From NCBI GenBank assembly GCA_030445695.1, contig JASUTF010000021.1:1-7957 (forward strand): a stretch of 7,957 bases of DNA, written 5' to 3'. Below are positions 1-7,521 of the stretch, one piece after another; the first letter of the stretch is position 1; each line of letters starts with the position of its first letter. A model generated the notes under the pieces. That model saw only the letters and a list, made by a program, of their open reading frames with translations, did not search any database and was not told the DNA's origin. This DNA comes from Candidatus Iainarchaeum sp. Lineage in GTDB: Archaea; Iainarchaeota; Iainarchaeia; JAADDC01. The position numbers were made by a program, and so were the translations under genes.

Positions 1-473
1 AAATTAAAAAATTGGTCGAAGGAGGCAGAACACGGACAGAATCCATATACAACACAGTAAGGGAGCTTGACGAGAGTTGTAAAAAGGTGGTATTTAACGA
101 TGCTGCTCGTCCTTTCGTTCCCGGTTACGTACTTGATGAGATGCTGGACCTCCTTGACGTATACCCCGTTGTGAAATTCTGCTCAAAAATCGTAGACTAC
201 CTTATGTTTGTGGATGATGCGGATTCGATTCAGAGAATCGACGATCGATCAAAGTGGCTACTGTGCAAGGCACCCGTAGCGTACAGAGCAGAAATTATGC
301 GAGACGTTCTTGCAAAAAGCACCGAGGAAGACATACTGTCCGCAGAGAGCGATCTTGAGCTAGCATTAGCGAAAATCCCGGGAATAAAGATACACCCTTA
401 CGTTTCGGAAGTCTTCAACTATAAGATTACATACTTAGAGGATCTAGAAATAGTCAGGAATCTGCTAAAGTAG
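1..473 (+). CDS. IspD/TarI-family cytidylyltransferase, C-terminal part (5' end outside window)
   Basis: The reading frame is open from base 3 and continues off the left edge, so the N-terminal CTP-binding loop (GGxGxR) is missing. Counting from the codon at base 12, landmarks of the IspD/TarI fold are visible: GGRTR with SIYN (residues 4-14), NDAARP (29-34), VD at 61-62, DRS..W (78-82) and FNYKIT followed by ED (135-144), the usual NxKxT...D end of the family. These enzymes join CTP to a polyol or methylerythritol phosphate in the cytoplasm. The usual TPQ-containing segment is replaced by CKAPVAYR (264-287), so it is a divergent member. Archaea make isoprenoids by the mevalonate route, and the convergent neighbour is a CDP-polyol phosphotransferase, so I infer a CDP-polyol or related CDP-activated precursor for a surface polymer rather than IspD function. 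Its stop overlaps that neighbour by 9 bases. Family assignment is fairly sure; substrate is unknown. Confidence 0.8.
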   Translation, partial: IKKLVEGGRTRTESIYNTVRELDESCKKVVFNDAARPFVPGYVLDEMLDLLDVYPVVKFCSKIVDYLMFVDDADSIQRIDDRSKWLLCKAPVAYRAEIMRDVLAKSTEEDILSAESDLELALAKIPGIKIHPYVSEVFNYKITYLEDLEIVRNLLK

Positions 474-1844
474 CTCCTGCACCGAATCTACCAGTTCTTT
501 CTTTGGGGCAAAGATGCGGGAACGGAGTTTACGCCGGGCCTCTGCATATTCGTCCCTACCTCTAAGGACGTCGATAATAGCTTGCTTTAATTCCTCGTAA
601 GTCCTCACTTTTGGCCCAGGGGTGGCTGAATCATAGTCAAAATACATATCTCTGTTTCGGGAGAGGTAATCCTCCAGATCGTAGCAGAAAAATACAATTG
701 GCCGGTCCAACAAAAGAAAGTCAAAGTAAATGGAAGAATAATCGGTAATAAGCGCATCGGCATGCTTGAGTATGGGATACAAATCAGATCGTGGGTTTAC
801 TAAGTGAATTCTGTGCAGATCGCCAGGTATTTTCTGTAAAGACGAGAATACGTGTGGTTTTATCAGTAACACAGCGTTTTCTCGCTCGAGTAACTCGTCA
901 AGGTCATGCCAATCCACCATGCGTAACACGCGCTCGTCTGATCCATCATCACGGAAGGTCGGCGCGTATACGATAACCCGTGTTCCCGAATTTTTCGCAG
1001 AAGAAACAAGATCATAAATCCCTCTATCCACTCCAATAATCTGCCCGGGCAAGTCTTCAAAGAAAACCTTGCAACGCGGGTACTCAGATACAATAACCCT
1101 GCTGGGAGGAACTCGAAACGCGGAGGAAAAAAATTTTGAGAGATCTGGAGAGGTTGCCAAAACATAATATTTGGGGTATCTAACGGACTCATAGACCATG
1201 GGGTATAATATATGGTGTAAAACGCGCGTAAGGGTGTGTTTCCTCAACAACACAAATAGTAGCGAAATACCTTTCTTAGCATCATACTCAATCTTCTTCA
1301 AAGGTATTCCATGCCAAAGATTGACAAGTAGTGCACCATTTGAGAGCCAACAATTAATGTCCTCTGAAGAGCAAGTAAAAAACCAGACACCCGCGCGTGT
1401 AGCGACAACCATACCTCCAATGGACCACTTATAGTATGCTTCAAAGCCCTTCTGACGAAGTACTCTCACGAGTTCCTTATTTGACGAAATCCATACGGCA
1501 CGAACGCCAGGAACGTGTTTATTAACATAAAGATACAAATACTTCGAATTATCAGAAAAATTGCTGTGGCAATTCCCAAAAACCCAGAGATTGCGATCAC
1601 GGCGAACAAAACCACTTAAGAAATACATGCCCCACAAAAAAGGCGATAAAATCAGACGTCGCAACACTGAAAGAATTCGGTGTCCAAGAGGTTTACAAGA
1701 AAGGAACCAGCGCACAAAAGGATTATCTAAGACTCGCACAAAAGGATTATCTAAGACTAATGCGTTTATAAATATACTACAAAAACAGGACAGCGAATCT
1801 AGACACGCATGATTAAAAGTACCCGTAAACGCGAGAACCCCCAT
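465..1844 (-). CDS. CDP-glycerol/ribitol glycerophosphotransferase family protein (TagF/TagB-like)
   Basis: A 459-residue product. Family landmarks in order: RRDRNLWVFG (81-90) and SDNSKYL (97-103) at the domain entry, LWHGIPLKK (176-184) with the catalytic His, EYPR (254-257), YAPTFRDD (293-300), IKPH (328-331) with the second conserved His, and ITDYSSIYFDF (366-376) followed by a PGP segment near 409. This is the Glyphos_transf family, which moves polyol phosphate from CDP-glycerol or CDP-ribitol onto a lipid-linked acceptor at the inner membrane face. No signal peptide is seen; basic and hydrophobic helices at 46-80 may bind the membrane. The start is uncertain. ATG at 1844 has a weak GGTG at 1855-1852, and an in-frame TGA lies two codons upstream. 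A GTG at 1739 (residue 36) lies about 30 bases below a TATA-like run and would also give a sensible N-terminus. Residues 30-45 are a perfect 8-residue duplication. Acceptor and polyol cannot be told from sequence. Confidence 0.88.
   Translation of the reverse strand: MGVLAFTGTFNHACLDSLSCFCSIFINALVLDNPFVRVLDNPFVRWFLSCKPLGHRILSVLRRLILSPFLWGMYFLSGFVRRDRNLWVFGNCHSNFSDNSKYLYLYVNKHVPGVRAVWISSNKELVRVLRQKGFEAYYKWSIGGMVVATRAGVWFFTCSSEDINCWLSNGALLVNLWHGIPLKKIEYDAKKGISLLFVLLRKHTLTRVLHHILYPMVYESVRYPKYYVLATSPDLSKFFSSAFRVPPSRVIVSEYPRCKVFFEDLPGQIIGVDRGIYDLVSSAKNSGTRVIVYAPTFRDDGSDERVLRMVDWHDLDELLERENAVLLIKPHVFSSLQKIPGDLHRIHLVNPRSDLYPILKHADALITDYSSIYFDFLLLDRPIVFFCYDLEDYLSRNRDMYFDYDSATPGPKVRTYEELKQAIIDVLRGRDEYAEARRKLRSRIFAPKKELVDSVQELL
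1711..1758. repeat. Perfect 24-bp tandem duplication inside the TagF-like gene
   Basis: Two identical, directly adjacent 24-base copies (1711-1734 and 1735-1758). The length is a multiple of three, so the frame is kept and the protein repeats VLDNPFVR at residues 30-37 and 38-45. No base differs between copies, which points to a recent slippage-type event. It lies before the recognisable catalytic domain, so activity is probably unaffected. Confidence 0.95.
1765..1776 (-). promoter_or_regulatory. TATA-like run inside the TagF-like ORF, candidate internal promoter
   Basis: On the minus strand the run reads TATATTTATAAA. Its centre is about 30 bases upstream of an in-frame GTG (1739-1737). Since leaderless starts look common in this window, this could be the true promoter with translation from that GTG. 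It could equally be chance in an AT-rich stretch coding for SIFINA. Confidence 0.3.
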
Positions 1845-1903
1845 ACATCAACACCGCGCACCACAGTAAAGCGGGCGCCAAATGCTCTCACAACGACATT
1901 AAG

Positions 1904-1913
1904 TATTTTATTC
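1904..1913 (-). promoter_or_regulatory. Candidate TATA box for the TagF-like gene
   Basis: The minus strand reads GAATAAAATA in the 104-base gap between the exporter stop and the ATG at 1844. Transcription would begin near 1882, leaving a leader of about 37 bases with a GGTG seven bases before the ATG. This competes with the internal TATA-like run at 1765-1776. Confidence 0.4.
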
Positions 1914-1925
1914 CAGAAGCACAGC

Positions 1926-1935
1926 AAAAGAAAAA
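1926..1935 (-). terminator. T-rich tract after the exporter gene, possible archaeal terminator
   Basis: Just past the exporter stop codon (1951-1949), the minus strand reads TTTTTCTTTT. Archaeal RNA polymerase commonly stops at such T-rich tracts without a hairpin. It would separate the exporter transcript from the TagF-like gene, which has its own candidate promoter just downstream. Confidence 0.45.
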
Positions 1936-1948
1936 TGAGGGATATTTC

Positions 1949-3205
1949 TCACAAATGTTCTCGGTGAGCTAAAAGAACAAAACGCACAGCAACCACAAAG
2001 CCTGCAATACCAATGCTTGTCACGGTTGCCATTGCAGCACCCACCGCGCCCCATTGGAGAATAAACAGATAGTTGAGAACAACATTCAAAATTCCAGCAA
2101 CAAGGGGATACACCACCTGTTCCCGCTCACGACCGATAGCGATGAGTCCCTGGATGGAAAGTGCATAAACAAAATATGTAGGAATCAAGAAAAGCAAAAC
2201 GTAAAATATTGGAATGGATTGCATGTACTCATCGCCAAAGAAAAAGAGAATGAGTGGGGGCCCCACAAAGTAAAACACTGCAATTGCTGCTACTGAAACG
2301 GCGGACGAAAGTGCAAGTAGCAAGAAGAACGTCCTCTTGAGTTGACCACGCGCCGTAGCACGGGAAAGGGTGGGCAGAGAAACCGCCACAATCGGAAGGA
2401 CAGAAATGATCGATGTTACCGCGAGTTGGGCGACCTTATAGTAACCAACCGCCTCCATGGGTCTGAGTGCTGAGAGCATAATTACATCCGTCTGGGCCAG
2501 TAGCATGTGAGCGATGCCGAAGAAAAGGAAGGGAAGCGCTTCGATCAAAACATTCAAACCATATTTTTCAGACGGTTGGGCATGCTTGCGGACAACACGA
2601 TAGAGCAACAGCGCGTAAAATCCGAAGACAAAAGTATATGCAAGAACCACCGGAACAAAATCGCGGACGAAATATACCAAAGCAAGAACAAGGATTAGTC
2701 GCAGAACATCGCGAACGACAGCAGGGATAACAGCACGCTCAAGCCGGTGAAGAGCGATTAATATTGATTCAAAGATTAAACCCAAAATCATAGTTGCCGA
2801 GTAAAGTCCGGCAAGAGTAAACAGCAAGATGGCTGCTTCCCGACCAAGGAAGACGTTCGCAAAGATCCCAAGAGCCACTGAAAAAATTATTGATAGTGCC
2901 ACCACACGAGAAGATGTTGACAGAATAGCAGACACTAATGATCCTGCATTGTCCTGCTGTTCATCCCAGAAAGCGACGTGCCTCTGAATATAGCCGGGGA
3001 GCCCAAAGCTGAAAACGGTGGCGAGAACTCCTGCAACGGATGCAACAAAGGAAAAGTAACCCAGCTGGGCAGGGCCGAGGAAACGAGCAAGGTATATTGT
3101 GATGATTAGACCTACAAGCTTAGACCATGCACTAATAATAAATCGAGGGCCGAGATTGCGGAAGTAGCGGGTGCGGAGATAGTCCTGAAAGCCCACGAAG
3201 GTCAT
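1949..3205 (-). CDS. Wzx-like polysaccharide/lipid-linked glycan exporter (MOP superfamily)
   Basis: A 418-residue, very hydrophobic protein with about 12 predicted membrane spans (roughly 20-42, 48-70, 100-120, 125-148, 168-185, 187-205, 220-240, 258-280, 294-315, 333-353, 366-384, 388-410). The opening pattern, a short basic N-terminus then ARFLGPAQLGYFSF (40-53), is typical of polysaccharide biosynthesis proteins of the Wzx/RfbX group, as are QTDVIMLSAL (238-247) and EAVGYYKVAQ (251-260). Such proteins flip lipid-linked glycans from the cytoplasmic to the outer face. It lies upstream of the TagF-like gene on the same strand with a 104-base gap, supporting a shared role in making a surface polymer. 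ATG at 3205 has only a weak AAGGA upstream. GTG at 3196 lies 24-25 bases below a TATA-like box and may be the real, leaderless start, shortening the protein by three residues. The cargo is unknown. Confidence 0.88.
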   Translation of the reverse strand: MTFVGFQDYLRTRYFRNLGPRFIISAWSKLVGLIITIYLARFLGPAQLGYFSFVASVAGVLATVFSFGLPGYIQRHVAFWDEQQDNAGSLVSAILSTSSRVVALSIIFSVALGIFANVFLGREAAILLFTLAGLYSATMILGLIFESILIALHRLERAVIPAVVRDVLRLILVLALVYFVRDFVPVVLAYTFVFGFYALLLYRVVRKHAQPSEKYGLNVLIEALPFLFFGIAHMLLAQTDVIMLSALRPMEAVGYYKVAQLAVTSIISVLPIVAVSLPTLSRATARGQLKRTFFLLLALSSAVSVAAIAVFYFVGPPLILFFFGDEYMQSIPIFYVLLFLIPTYFVYALSIQGLIAIGREREQVVYPLVAGILNVVLNYLFILQWGAVGAAMATVTSIGIAGFVVAVRFVLLAHREHL

Positions 3206-3799: not shown

Positions 3800-5734
3800 A
3801 TGATAACTCATGACCTGAAAATCGTTGGCGTGTTCTTTCTGGTAATCCTTGCTTTCATATTCTTCGCGGGAATGCAGGCGTTCCTGCAGCAGGCACAGCC
3901 CACGGAATGGAAGACGGAAGAATTCAGACTTGTGCCAGCAGAGAACCCCGAGGATCTGAACGCTTACGTCGTGAAGAGCCGCGCCACAATCTATGCAGGG
4001 GCAGAAATATATACCTTGGGTGCTGCGGTGCGAACTGCGGATGCGGCGGCGGAGTCAGCAGGTGCAGTTGAATCTACCCCCACCGCGGAACAGCCGGCCC
4101 CCGAACGGGAATCAACAACGAACGTCCAGGTTGCAGGCATTGACGAGCCGGATATCCTGAAAATAGGCGACGGAAAGGCGTTCTTCCAGTCCAGGGGAAG
4201 GGTGAAGGTAATCGACGCGTTCCCGCCGGAGGAGGCAGAGGTCCTCTCAAAGATCCCGACGAACTGGGGGACAGAACTCCTAAAGACGGACAACGTGCTC
4301 ATACTTCTTGAAGGAAGGAGGATAGTGGGGTACGACGTCTCGAACCCCGAGAAGCCGGAAGAGGCGTGGAGCGTCGAGCTAAACGGCTACATAACCGACG
4401 CGAGGGAGAAGGACGGGAAGATATACGCAGTAGTGTCCGGCTACCGCGTGACCTGTCCGTACTATGCTGCGGAAGGTGTGATCGTCCCCTGCATGCGTTA
4501 CTATTACCCCACAGTTCCGCTCCCGGCAGAGGTAACGTACACGGTGCTGAAGATAGACGGAGAAAGCGGAGAGGTTGAAGAATCCGTCGCACTGATCGGA
4601 ACGTACGATACAACGGTCTACATGAGCGAAAATGCGATCTACTTCACATATAGGATCCAGAAACCGTACGATGAAGTCCTGTACGACTTCATACTGGAGA
4701 AGGGTGACGAGTTCCTGCCGGAAGACGTTGTGGAGCACCTGAAGAGGGTGAACGAGTACGACATAAGCATCATGGCAAAGATCGCGGAACTCCAGATCGT
4801 TCTGTACAAGTACTACGGGAGCATCCCGCCGGAGGAGCAGAGCAACGTGCAGAATAGAATTGAAAAAGCGCTGGAGGAGTACATGAGGGAGAACGGCGAT
4901 AAGATAGACAGAACGGGCATAGCGAAGATATCACTGGACGACCTGAGCGTTGAGGCAACCGGGGAGGTGCCCGGACACCTGCTGAACCAGTGGAGCATGG
5001 ATGAGTATGAGGGATACCTGCGCGTTGCGACCACGACGTCGGGTACCTGGCGGCAGAACTTCGGGAACAACCTCTACATTCTGGACGGAGACCTGGACGT
5101 CGTGGGGAAGATTGAGGGCCTGGAAGAGGGGGAGAGGATATACGCAGTGCGCTTCATGGGAGAAAAGGCATACGTGGTGACGTACAAGGAAACGGACCCC
5201 CTACTGGTCCTCGACCTCTCTGACCCGAAAACCCCGAGGGTCCTCGGCGAGCTGAAGATACCCGGCTTCTCAACGTACCTGCACCCGATAGGAGATAACC
5301 ACATGATCGGCGTGGGCCGTGCAGACGACTGGAAGGTGAAGGTAAGCCTCTTTGACGTGTCGGACCCCGAGAATCCCGTCGAAAAAGACGTGTACTACCT
5401 GAGCGAGACGTGGAGCGACGTCATATACGACCACCACGCCTTCCTCTGGGACGCCAAGCACGACCTCCTCATACTGCCCGCCGGTACAAGATACTACCTG
5501 CTGCGCGTGAGAAAAGATGAGAAGCCGTACATAGAAGCCGTAAAGATAGTGGAGTTCGACAGCACGGCGAGGCGGGCGGCGTACATGGACGACTACGCGT
5601 ACCTCTTCTCAGACGGCGAGATGGCGGTCGTGGACGAGGTCAGCGGCAAGGAAGTGAAGCGGCTGAGGGTCGAGGATGCGTGGTACCACCCGCCGATTGT
5701 CCGTCCCGAACCGGTAGGGATAGAGGAAGGCTAA
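3800..5734 (+). CDS. Membrane-anchored extracytoplasmic beta-propeller domain protein
   Basis: A 644-residue product of the secreted C-terminal beta-propeller family (Beta_propel, COG4880-like), whose function is unknown. Residues 8-28 form one hydrophobic span after a short HDLK start, with no obvious cleavage site, so it is probably an anchor with the rest outside the cell. An Ala/Glu/Pro-rich linker (80-105) precedes the family signature TTNVQVAGIDEPDIL (106-120). A charged helical insert (about 287-372) follows the first blades, as is usual in archaeal members, then PGHLLNQWSMDEYEGYLRVA (391-410), YLHP (493-496), SLFDVSDPENP (516-526) and DHHAFLWD (544-551). The only two cysteines, 219 and 231, flank a short loop and could form a disulfide outside the cell. 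ATG 3800 is preferred because of the TATA box 25-26 bases upstream. The 3' end overlaps the convergent UbiA-type gene by 4 bases. The propeller may bind protein or glycan. Confidence 0.88.
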   Translation: MITHDLKIVGVFFLVILAFIFFAGMQAFLQQAQPTEWKTEEFRLVPAENPEDLNAYVVKSRATIYAGAEIYTLGAAVRTADAAAESAGAVESTPTAEQPAPERESTTNVQVAGIDEPDILKIGDGKAFFQSRGRVKVIDAFPPEEAEVLSKIPTNWGTELLKTDNVLILLEGRRIVGYDVSNPEKPEEAWSVELNGYITDAREKDGKIYAVVSGYRVTCPYYAAEGVIVPCMRYYYPTVPLPAEVTYTVLKIDGESGEVEESVALIGTYDTTVYMSENAIYFTYRIQKPYDEVLYDFILEKGDEFLPEDVVEHLKRVNEYDISIMAKIAELQIVLYKYYGSIPPEEQSNVQNRIEKALEEYMRENGDKIDRTGIAKISLDDLSVEATGEVPGHLLNQWSMDEYEGYLRVATTTSGTWRQNFGNNLYILDGDLDVVGKIEGLEEGERIYAVRFMGEKAYVVTYKETDPLLVLDLSDPKTPRVLGELKIPGFSTYLHPIGDNHMIGVGRADDWKVKVSLFDVSDPENPVEKDVYYLSETWSDVIYDHHAFLWDAKHDLLILPAGTRYYLLRVRKDEKPYIEAVKIVEFDSTARRAAYMDDYAYLFSDGEMAVVDEVSGKEVKRLRVEDAWYHPPIVRPEPVGIEEG

Positions 5735-6582
5735 ATGAGGTAGATAACAGCAAAGAGCACAGCAGCCCACAGCGCGAGCCCTAGAAGGAATCCCCGGTCG
5801 TAGACCATTTTGGCGGCGTCCTCCGCAAGGTCTGGGTTCCTCATGGCGTCGTTGTACCACCTGAACAGCGTGAAGACGGCAATGGGAAGCGTGGTCACGG
5901 CGGTAATTGTCTTGTGGGGGAGGTGCGAGTCAAAGACGTAGAGCGTGTAGAGGACGAGGATTATGCCGAGCGTTACTGCGGAGAGGACGCGGAGGGTATC
6001 TGCATCGTACTGCTGGAGTGATGCACGCGCCTCCGTGGTCCTCTGGAGCTCCCCGTAACGCTTGAGGAGGGCAAGGAAGACGGCGATGAAGTAGGGGATT
6101 ATGATGATCCAGTAGGACGGGTATACACCAATCGCGAAGACACCGGCCAGGGTTCGGAAGAGGAAGTTCAGGGCAAGGTCAGCAACGTCTATGAAGGCAA
6201 AACGCTTGAGGAAGAGGGAGTAAATGAGGGTGTTGAGGATGAGGGCGGAGACAGAGAGGAAGACCAAGGCGTTCACCGAGTAGGCCAAGAGTAGGGCAAG
6301 GGCAACGAGCGCATAGCCGTAGACCGTGGCAGCGGGGACGGAAATGCGGCCGGAGGGGAGCGGACGATTACGTTTCTTTGGGTGCAGGCGATCCTTCTCC
6401 ACGTCGATTATGTCGTTGATCACGTAGACGCCGGAGGAAGCCAGGGAGAGGGCAAAGAATGTGATAGTAACGGAGAGGAGTGCGTGAAGGTCCAAGAACA
6501 GTCCTGCGAAGAAGATGCCGAGGAAAGCGACGACGTTCTTGTACCATTGCCAGGGGCGGACAATCTCCACGTACGGGTTCAT
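5731..6582 (-). CDS. UbiA-family prenyltransferase, probable polyprenyl-phosphate phosphoribosyltransferase
   Basis: A 283-residue polytopic membrane protein with about eight to nine spans. The first UbiA Asp-rich motif is NDIIDVEKD (56-64), followed by RLHPKKRNRPLPSG (65-78). Other landmarks are YSLFLKR (121-127), IDVADLALNFLFRTLAG (131-147) and LKRYGEL (173-179). The RPWQWYKN opening (9-16), HPxKR-RP, YSLxLK and KRYxEL patterns resemble decaprenyl-phosphate phosphoribosyltransferases more than quinone or geranylgeranylglyceryl-phosphate enzymes. That family moves phosphoribose from PRPP to a polyprenyl phosphate, giving lipid-linked pentose. ATG 6582 is chosen because RPW-YKN lies near the N-terminus in the family and a TATA box is centred 25 bases upstream. 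A longer reading from 6648 would run through that promoter into the divergent gene. The divergent flippase-like neighbour and nearby epimerase support a role in envelope glycan synthesis. The exact acceptor and donor are inferred. Confidence 0.85.
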   Translation of the reverse strand: MNPYVEIVRPWQWYKNVVAFLGIFFAGLFLDLHALLSVTITFFALSLASSGVYVINDIIDVEKDRLHPKKRNRPLPSGRISVPAATVYGYALVALALLLAYSVNALVFLSVSALILNTLIYSLFLKRFAFIDVADLALNFLFRTLAGVFAIGVYPSYWIIIIPYFIAVFLALLKRYGELQRTTEARASLQQYDADTLRVLSAVTLGIILVLYTLYVFDSHLPHKTITAVTTLPIAVFTLFRWYNDAMRNPDLAEDAAKMVYDRGFLLGLALWAAVLFAVIYLI

Positions 6583-6603
6583 GAGTAGAGAAGTGTCAAG
6601 GAG

Positions 6604-6610
6604 TATAAAA
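6604..6610. promoter_or_regulatory. Single TATA box shared by two divergent genes
   Basis: TATAAAA lies in the 48-base gap between two divergent starts. Its centre (6607) is 24 bases from GTG 6631 on the plus strand and 25 bases from ATG 6582 on the minus strand. It reads as a good TATA box both ways (TATAAAA / TTTTATA), with purine-rich BRE-like bases on both sides (CAAGGAG on plus, CGAAA on minus). No second TATA-like box is seen in the gap. Confidence 0.7.
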
Positions 6611-6630
6611 GGTTTCGAGCAGATTCTGAT

Positions 6631-7521
6631 GTGAATGTATTGAAGCACTGGAGAGCCCTGTTCATCATCGCCCTCATTCTGCTAGCGGTCGCATACAGGG
6701 AGGAAGCGGTAAGGATTATTGAGGTAATGCGGAGCGCACCCCTCTGGCTGTTCTTCGCGGCGCTTGTTCTTGTCGTTACTGAGTTCGCGCTTCAAGCGCT
6801 CAGGATGAAACTCATATTCAAGCGAAGCTGGATGGAGATTCTCCGAGTATATGCGATCGGACACTTCGTGGCGCTTTCATTCCCGTCGAGAACGCTGGGA
6901 GAGGGGGCCCGTGTTGCTGCGTTTGCAAGGGAACTGAACGTCAACCTCGGGGATGCTGCTGCATACGTATCCGTTGAAAGGATAGCGGACATAGCAGTAA
7001 TTCTTGCAGCGGCATCGCTCGTACTGGTGAACATCAACCCGCTCCTCGCCGCAGGCATAGCAGTGCTCGTGGTTGTGGGGTTCGTGCTCCTCGAGTCCGA
7101 TGGCATATACGCAAAGATAATGGAGAAAAACCTGCCAAGGTTTGTTACGGACTACATAGAGCGCGGGAGAAAGATCGTGAAGGACAGGAAATTGTTTGCG
7201 GCGATCTTTGGGATCACGGTGGTCCTCTGGGCGATAGACTTCTACAGGATGTGGATAATCCTCGAAGCAATGGGTGGAAGGGTCGACTACGTGACCGTGG
7301 CATCCCTCGTTTCCCTCGCATACATCCTCGGGACGATCTCGTTCCTGCCTGGCGGACTTGGAGCGTACGAGGGAGGGCTGGCGGGGGGCCTCGTCCTGAA
7401 GGGGGTCCCATACGACGTGGCAATCGCGGCGACGCTGTACGAGCGCTTCTTCTCGTACTGGCTGTGGATCGTTGTGGGGGCGCTGGCGGGGGTCAGAAGT
7501 GGATCATCATCAGGCGCTTGA
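6631..7521 (+). CDS. UPF0104 / lysylphosphatidylglycerol-synthase-like membrane protein (flippase-like)
   Basis: A 296-residue protein with about seven to eight membrane spans (first two near 9-22 and 36-57). It has the landmarks of the LPG_synthase_TM family: SFPSRTLGEGAR (83-94), VERIAD (115-120), FLPGGLGAYEGG (238-249) and YERFFSYW (270-277). The cytoplasmic catalytic domain of MprF is absent, so it is not a lysyl transferase. Stand-alone members often sit beside glycosyltransferase and polyprenyl-phosphate genes and are thought to move lipids across the membrane; here it is divergent from a UbiA-type gene and convergent with an epimerase, which fits. GTG 6631 is favoured by the TATA box 24 bases upstream and no Shine-Dalgarno site; the ATG at 6635 is out of frame. 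Arginine codons are mostly AGG/AGA (13 of 19). Its last 29 bases overlap the convergent gene. The substrate is unknown. Confidence 0.85.
   Translation: MNVLKHWRALFIIALILLAVAYREEAVRIIEVMRSAPLWLFFAALVLVVTEFALQALRMKLIFKRSWMEILRVYAIGHFVALSFPSRTLGEGARVAAFARELNVNLGDAAAYVSVERIADIAVILAAASLVLVNINPLLAAGIAVLVVVGFVLLESDGIYAKIMEKNLPRFVTDYIERGRKIVKDRKLFAAIFGITVVLWAIDFYRMWIILEAMGGRVDYVTVASLVSLAYILGTISFLPGGLGAYEGGLAGGLVLKGVPYDVAIAATLYERFFSYWLWIVVGALAGVRSGSSSGA

Follow-up and report, generated by a model that had tools for sequence, protein, structure and literature searches.

A single TATA box, probably read in both directions, between two divergent and predicted leaderless genes of a Micrarchaeota genome

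Bidirectional promoters of bacteria and archaea are said to arise from sequence symmetry; in the study by Warman et al. 2021 (Nat Microbiol), as cited in PMC10268837 and PMC12825309, bacterial starts are reportedly found, as a rule, 18 bp apart, with a shared -10 box. The near-symmetric TATA element which TBP recognizes in Pyrococcus furiosus allows promoters of the BRE-TATA-BRE type to fire both ways, with starts 49 bp apart in vitro (PF1918) (Gruenberger et al. 2019, PMC6640164). Leaderless archaeal genes, for example in Haloferax volcanii, have no leader, and their TATA box is found about 26 nt ahead of the start codon (PMC3986360). In E. coli, the two directions of bidirectional promoters do not interfere at the basal level, strong activation one way can repress the other, and equal output is not forced (PMC12825309).

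The locus described here lies in a window of 7,957 nucleotides (the whole stretch of DNA analyzed), which corresponds to contig C9 of G000, a draft genome from the Micrarchaeota (664 kb and 55% GC, in 29 contigs, with a completeness of 88.6%). Two divergent genes are separated by an intergenic gap of 48 nt (6583-6630). The first, on the minus strand (5731-6582), starts with ATG, is predicted to be leaderless and encodes a UbiA-family prenyltransferase (PF01040, E=6.3e-27); the protein is similar to decaprenyl-phosphate phosphoribosyltransferase models, with scores under their cut-offs. The second, on the plus strand (6631-7521), starts with GTG, is likewise predicted to be leaderless and encodes a flippase-like integral membrane protein (LPG_synthase_TM / TIGR00374), matching PF03706 with E=1e-34 and TIGR00374 with 102.5 bits, against a cut-off of 43.2; its homologue in a congener-level relative is 58% identical.

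The far end of the window differs in composition: GC content is 44-48% over positions 1-3200, as compared to 52-59% for most of the remaining window and 55% for the genome, and this low-GC region is possibly an acquired surface-polymer island. An IspD-family cytidylyltransferase fragment (3-473) adjoins there a CDP-glycerol glycerophosphotransferase family gene (PF04464, 465-1844), the two constituting a teichoic-acid-like gene pair in an archaeon. Within the latter gene, at 1711-1758, a 24 nt sequence (CGCACAAAAGGATTATCTAAGACT) is present in two copies as an exact tandem duplication, which repeats eight residues in frame.

Genes were called by hexamer coding score in 569 kb of the 664 kb of the genome, yielding 582 genes, and a promoter model with variable spacing was trained solely on its non-divergent genes. 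AT hexamers peak at -30 to -27 from the start codon, with 20% of genes per position vs a 2% background, and the model consensus consists of a TATA block at -29 to -23, a T at -7 and a C at -1. Read from sequence, this signal is the usual picture of leaderless transcription, and leaderless promoters are predicted to be common in this genome. A Shine-Dalgarno-like GGTGA or GGAGG also precedes a share of the genes, so that both modes appear to exist.

In the gap under study, a single TATA box is found at 6604-6610 (TATAAAA on the plus strand, TTTTATA on the minus strand), and it is the predicted TBP site for both directions. Its centre, at 6607, is 24 nt from the GTG at 6631 and 25 nt from the ATG at 6582; the box occupies positions -28 to -22 relative to the UbiA start and -27 to -21 relative to the flippase start, in keeping with the 23-29 nt taken as typical of leaderless genes. 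One element is therefore placed midway between two divergent starts, as used here to define a bidirectional promoter, positions being those of codons and not of mapped 5' ends. When both strands were scanned over 6561-6680, TATAAAA scored 7.1 in both readings and no second TATA-like box was found: the next scores (4.5, 3.9, 3.6) belong to the same box off register, and separate sites, all inside the flippase ORF, do not exceed 3.3. The first-pass annotation, which had reported this box, the distances of 24 and 25, the 48-base gap and the lack of any other box, was exact in its coordinates. Its proposal that one box serves both directions is also supported by the positional box scores: 7.4 for UbiA (minus strand) and 6.8 for the flippase (plus strand), which rank at the 99th and 96th percentile, respectively, among 375 non-divergent genes, while none of 1648 internal start codons scores 6.8 or above. 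Total promoter scores fall at the 94th percentile for UbiA and at the 86th for the flippase.

The proximal promoter/initiator region of UbiA (6583-6592, minus strand) is pyrimidine-rich, with T at -7 and C at -1, and fits the leaderless consensus of the genome; that of the flippase (6621-6630, plus strand) reads AGATTCTGAT, with T at -7. Their initiator scores, 4.6 and 4.3, are at the 59th and 53rd percentile. No Shine-Dalgarno-like sequence is seen ahead of either start, and the box sits 1-2 nt nearer to each of them than the genome optimum. The suggestion that both mRNAs are leaderless is supported as a prediction, the T at -7 on both sides and the C at -1 for UbiA matching the genome consensus. 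Possible BREs, proposed on sequence only, are GAAACC for the UbiA direction (6611-6617, minus strand), directly upstream of TTTTATA, and CAAGGAG for the flippase direction (6597-6603, plus strand), directly upstream of TATAAAA. The latter is purine-rich, identical in the relative G003 and similar in two others, G002 and G004. Genome-wide, the BRE signal is itself weak, with an A at -34/-33 that contributes about 0.2 bit per position; the flanks of the box differ among relatives, and the BREs are weak and lack clear conservation on both sides.

The locus is not special, being one of a class which covers about 30% of the divergent pairs of the genome. With starts picked without promoter information, start-to-start gaps of 47-53 nt are found in 12 of 93 divergent pairs (longest ORF) or in 15 of 93 (coding score only), adjacent 7-nt bins containing 0-2 pairs; relative to local bin means, the excess corresponds to Poisson P of about 4e-5 and 4e-6, respectively. 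An AT6 run is present in the central 14 nt of 9 of the 12 pairs, vs a background of 4.1%. With promoter-aware starts, about 29 of the 93 pairs feature one common box (both readings above 3 in 26), and the gap mode is 50-51 nt, slightly above the 48 nt of our locus; since the same model chooses the starts, this count is partly biased, hence the promoter-free counts and a shift control. When the candidate starts of one gene were moved, the shared-box count fell from 25 to 8.5 +/- 2.3. AT content, averaged over the 29 gaps, has a mirror-like profile: a 7-bp box occupies the middle, and AT-rich shoulders lie 16-19 nt to either side. In other Micrarchaeota families, the 47-53 nt peak is found in G012 (7 or 5 of 67 pairs), where it is weaker than in G000, and is slight in G013 (3-4 of 45); it is absent in G015, an AT-rich genome (25% GC).

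A second class of divergent pairs in G000, with gaps of 29-38 nt, includes 10 of the 93 pairs with promoter-aware starts, and shows a local excess also with coding-only starts. These gaps contain two AT boxes, each lying over the T-rich proximal element of the other gene, as in face-to-face, interlocked promoters; an example is the gap GTTATAAAGATGTCTTCCTCCTTTTAATAGG, found between cat and atg.

Comparison with relatives, which had been indicated as a check of the original observation, showed that the spacing is maintained, and that there is a single box instead of two. The 48-53 nt gap is retained in five relatives, and TATAAAA is kept in place in four of them (G001, G002, G003, G004). UbiA and flippase genes are divergent neighbours in G000 (gap 48), G003 (50), G001 (51) and G008 (53), the last from another genus and with a degenerate box, TTCTTAA. 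The same two genes do not share the promoter across all relatives: the pair is kept in G001, G003 and G008, and one partner is exchanged in G002 and G004, that is, in two of the four relatives keeping TATAAAA. The box on the UbiA side, CTTTTATACTCCTT, is preserved without change in G002, where the divergent partner is instead a nucleotidyltransferase gene, exactly 50 nt away. The flippase and UbiA genes of G004 are separated by a gene for a GT87-like membrane protein, which shares the TATAAAA of the flippase across a 49-nt gap; UbiA, for its part, shows a separate TTAAAT at -27. Given these exchanges at 49-50 nt, it is the spacing that is conserved, while partners are exchangeable. Among orthologous pairs keeping both partners, in the stretches sampled from G001 and G002, 5 of 6 have a box at the centre of a 49-51 nt gap, and one reads 30. 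The nucleotidyltransferase gene of G002 (locus L163, plus strand from about 2364; Polbeta/NTP_transf_2) is followed by a HEPN-like frame, and the two together look like a toxin-antitoxin pair of the MntA/HepT type.

In all likelihood, the gap is a single archaeal core promoter which works in both directions. Its layout would be initiator, proximal element, BRE, TATA, BRE, proximal element, initiator: TBP would bind the single box, with TFB and RNA polymerase joining in either orientation, and transcription would start about 25 nt off in each direction, with the first base of the UbiA ATG or of the flippase GTG, so that the starts of the two leaderless mRNAs would be separated by 49 bp. The two directions would take turns on the same TBP site, so that TBP supply would be coupled, without forcing equal or obligatory joint expression. 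A symmetric box may also offer a ready-made reverse start to any gene with a start codon about 50 nt away, and this is the probable reason, as we infer, for its retention. More tentatively, a rule may be envisaged for the Micrarchaeota lineage, whereby about one third of divergent pairs have start codons locked at about 50 nt, with a single TBP site in between and leaderless messages in both directions, and orthologous boxes swap partners at kept spacing; the reverse start of the symmetric TATA would be the docking point where neighbours gain expression.

The arrangement of one box and two mRNAs could be under true selection for a co-regulated, lipid-linked pathway, to which UbiA and flippase would both belong. 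Both protein families handle polyprenyl or lipid carriers, and the pair is adjacent and divergent in several congeners as well as in another genus. Yet one partner was swapped in the congeners G002 and G004, where the geometry of 49-50 nt was left intact, the geometry is common across the genome, and the output of known bidirectional promoters need not be coupled (PMC12825309): selection of this kind is therefore unlikely. The original claim, that two membrane proteins linked in function are obligately co-regulated, is not supported, because the geometry, found in about 29 of 93 pairs, outlives its partners; partner exchange and the E. coli data (PMC12825309) speak against such co-regulation as the origin of the arrangement. 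Space economy in a small genome, together with the reverse start that a symmetric box provides by itself, explains the arrangement equally well.

It is improbable that the box drives one gene only, more likely UbiA, the flippase relying on a weak, TATA-less or upstream start and the spacing being coincidental. The UbiA side does score higher, for the box as well as in total, and has an ATG and a C at -1; moreover, G002 retains the UbiA promoter without a flippase neighbour. The flippase-side box, however, still ranks at the 96th percentile, and the flippase of G004 has its TATAAAA at an unchanged distance, although UbiA is no longer its divergent neighbour. One-sided use, in addition, cannot yield the genome-wide excess of 47-53 nt gaps.

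The assignment of both start codons was compared with relatives. Conservation of the UbiA protein begins at MNPYVEI/MNPYLEI in all five congeners, no such conservation is seen in the frame upstream of the ATG at 6582, and the UbiA ATG of G004 is immediately preceded by a stop codon; these data support the ATG at 6582. The longest UbiA ORF, from a GTG at 6648 within the flippase gene, was rejected. For the flippase, a GTG is located six codons ahead of a conserved Trp in G000, G003 and G004; this shared distance, and the lack of a box for the in-frame TTG at 6640 (score -1.4), which was rejected as a start, support the GTG at 6631. In G001 the flippase start is less certain: the promoter model selects a GTG, which gives the gap of 51. 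Mis-assigned starts, with short-leader mRNAs and a box-to-start distance uninformative on leaderless messages, are very improbable: sequence is a poor guide to GTG starts and a TTG is present nearby, but relatives fix the UbiA ATG, the TTG lacks a box, the GTG is kept in G003 and G004, and neither start has the Shine-Dalgarno-like sequence which occurs elsewhere in the genome.

The genome-wide frequency of shared boxes is more interesting than the locus itself. With the 47-53 nt peak, bidirectional use of TATA boxes can be read from genome sequence alone in uncultured archaea without transcriptomes; the peak also helps to set start codons in draft genomes. The swap of partners at constant spacing, seen in G002 and G004, makes the recruitment of neighbour genes by symmetric boxes a testable idea.

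As in the BRE-TATA-BRE promoters of Pyrococcus furiosus, one near-symmetric TATA element would give rise to opposite transcripts about 50 bp apart, 49 being predicted here (6582 and 6631). The two-way promoters of P. furiosus mainly produce a sense and a non-coding antisense RNA in head-to-tail genes, 5' UTRs are short, and the median head-to-head distance is 117 bp (PMC6640164). At the present locus, differently, leaderless mRNAs are predicted in both directions, and the fixed distance of about 50 nt is that between the start codons. Given this precedent, and the equal distance of 49 bp, the simplest account is the same mechanism, with TFB and polymerase taking alternative orientations on one TBP site. 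Similarly to the promoters of Warman et al., as described in papers that cite their study, a symmetric core element would engage polymerase in two orientations; unlike the bacterial ones reported there, the element is a TATA box and the predicted start separation is 49 bp. The distance of the box from the start codons is like that of Haloferax volcanii leaderless genes, the difference being that the same box is here available to two divergent ones. The locus is an instance of a known two-way archaeal promoter, here with both products predicted to be leaderless mRNAs.
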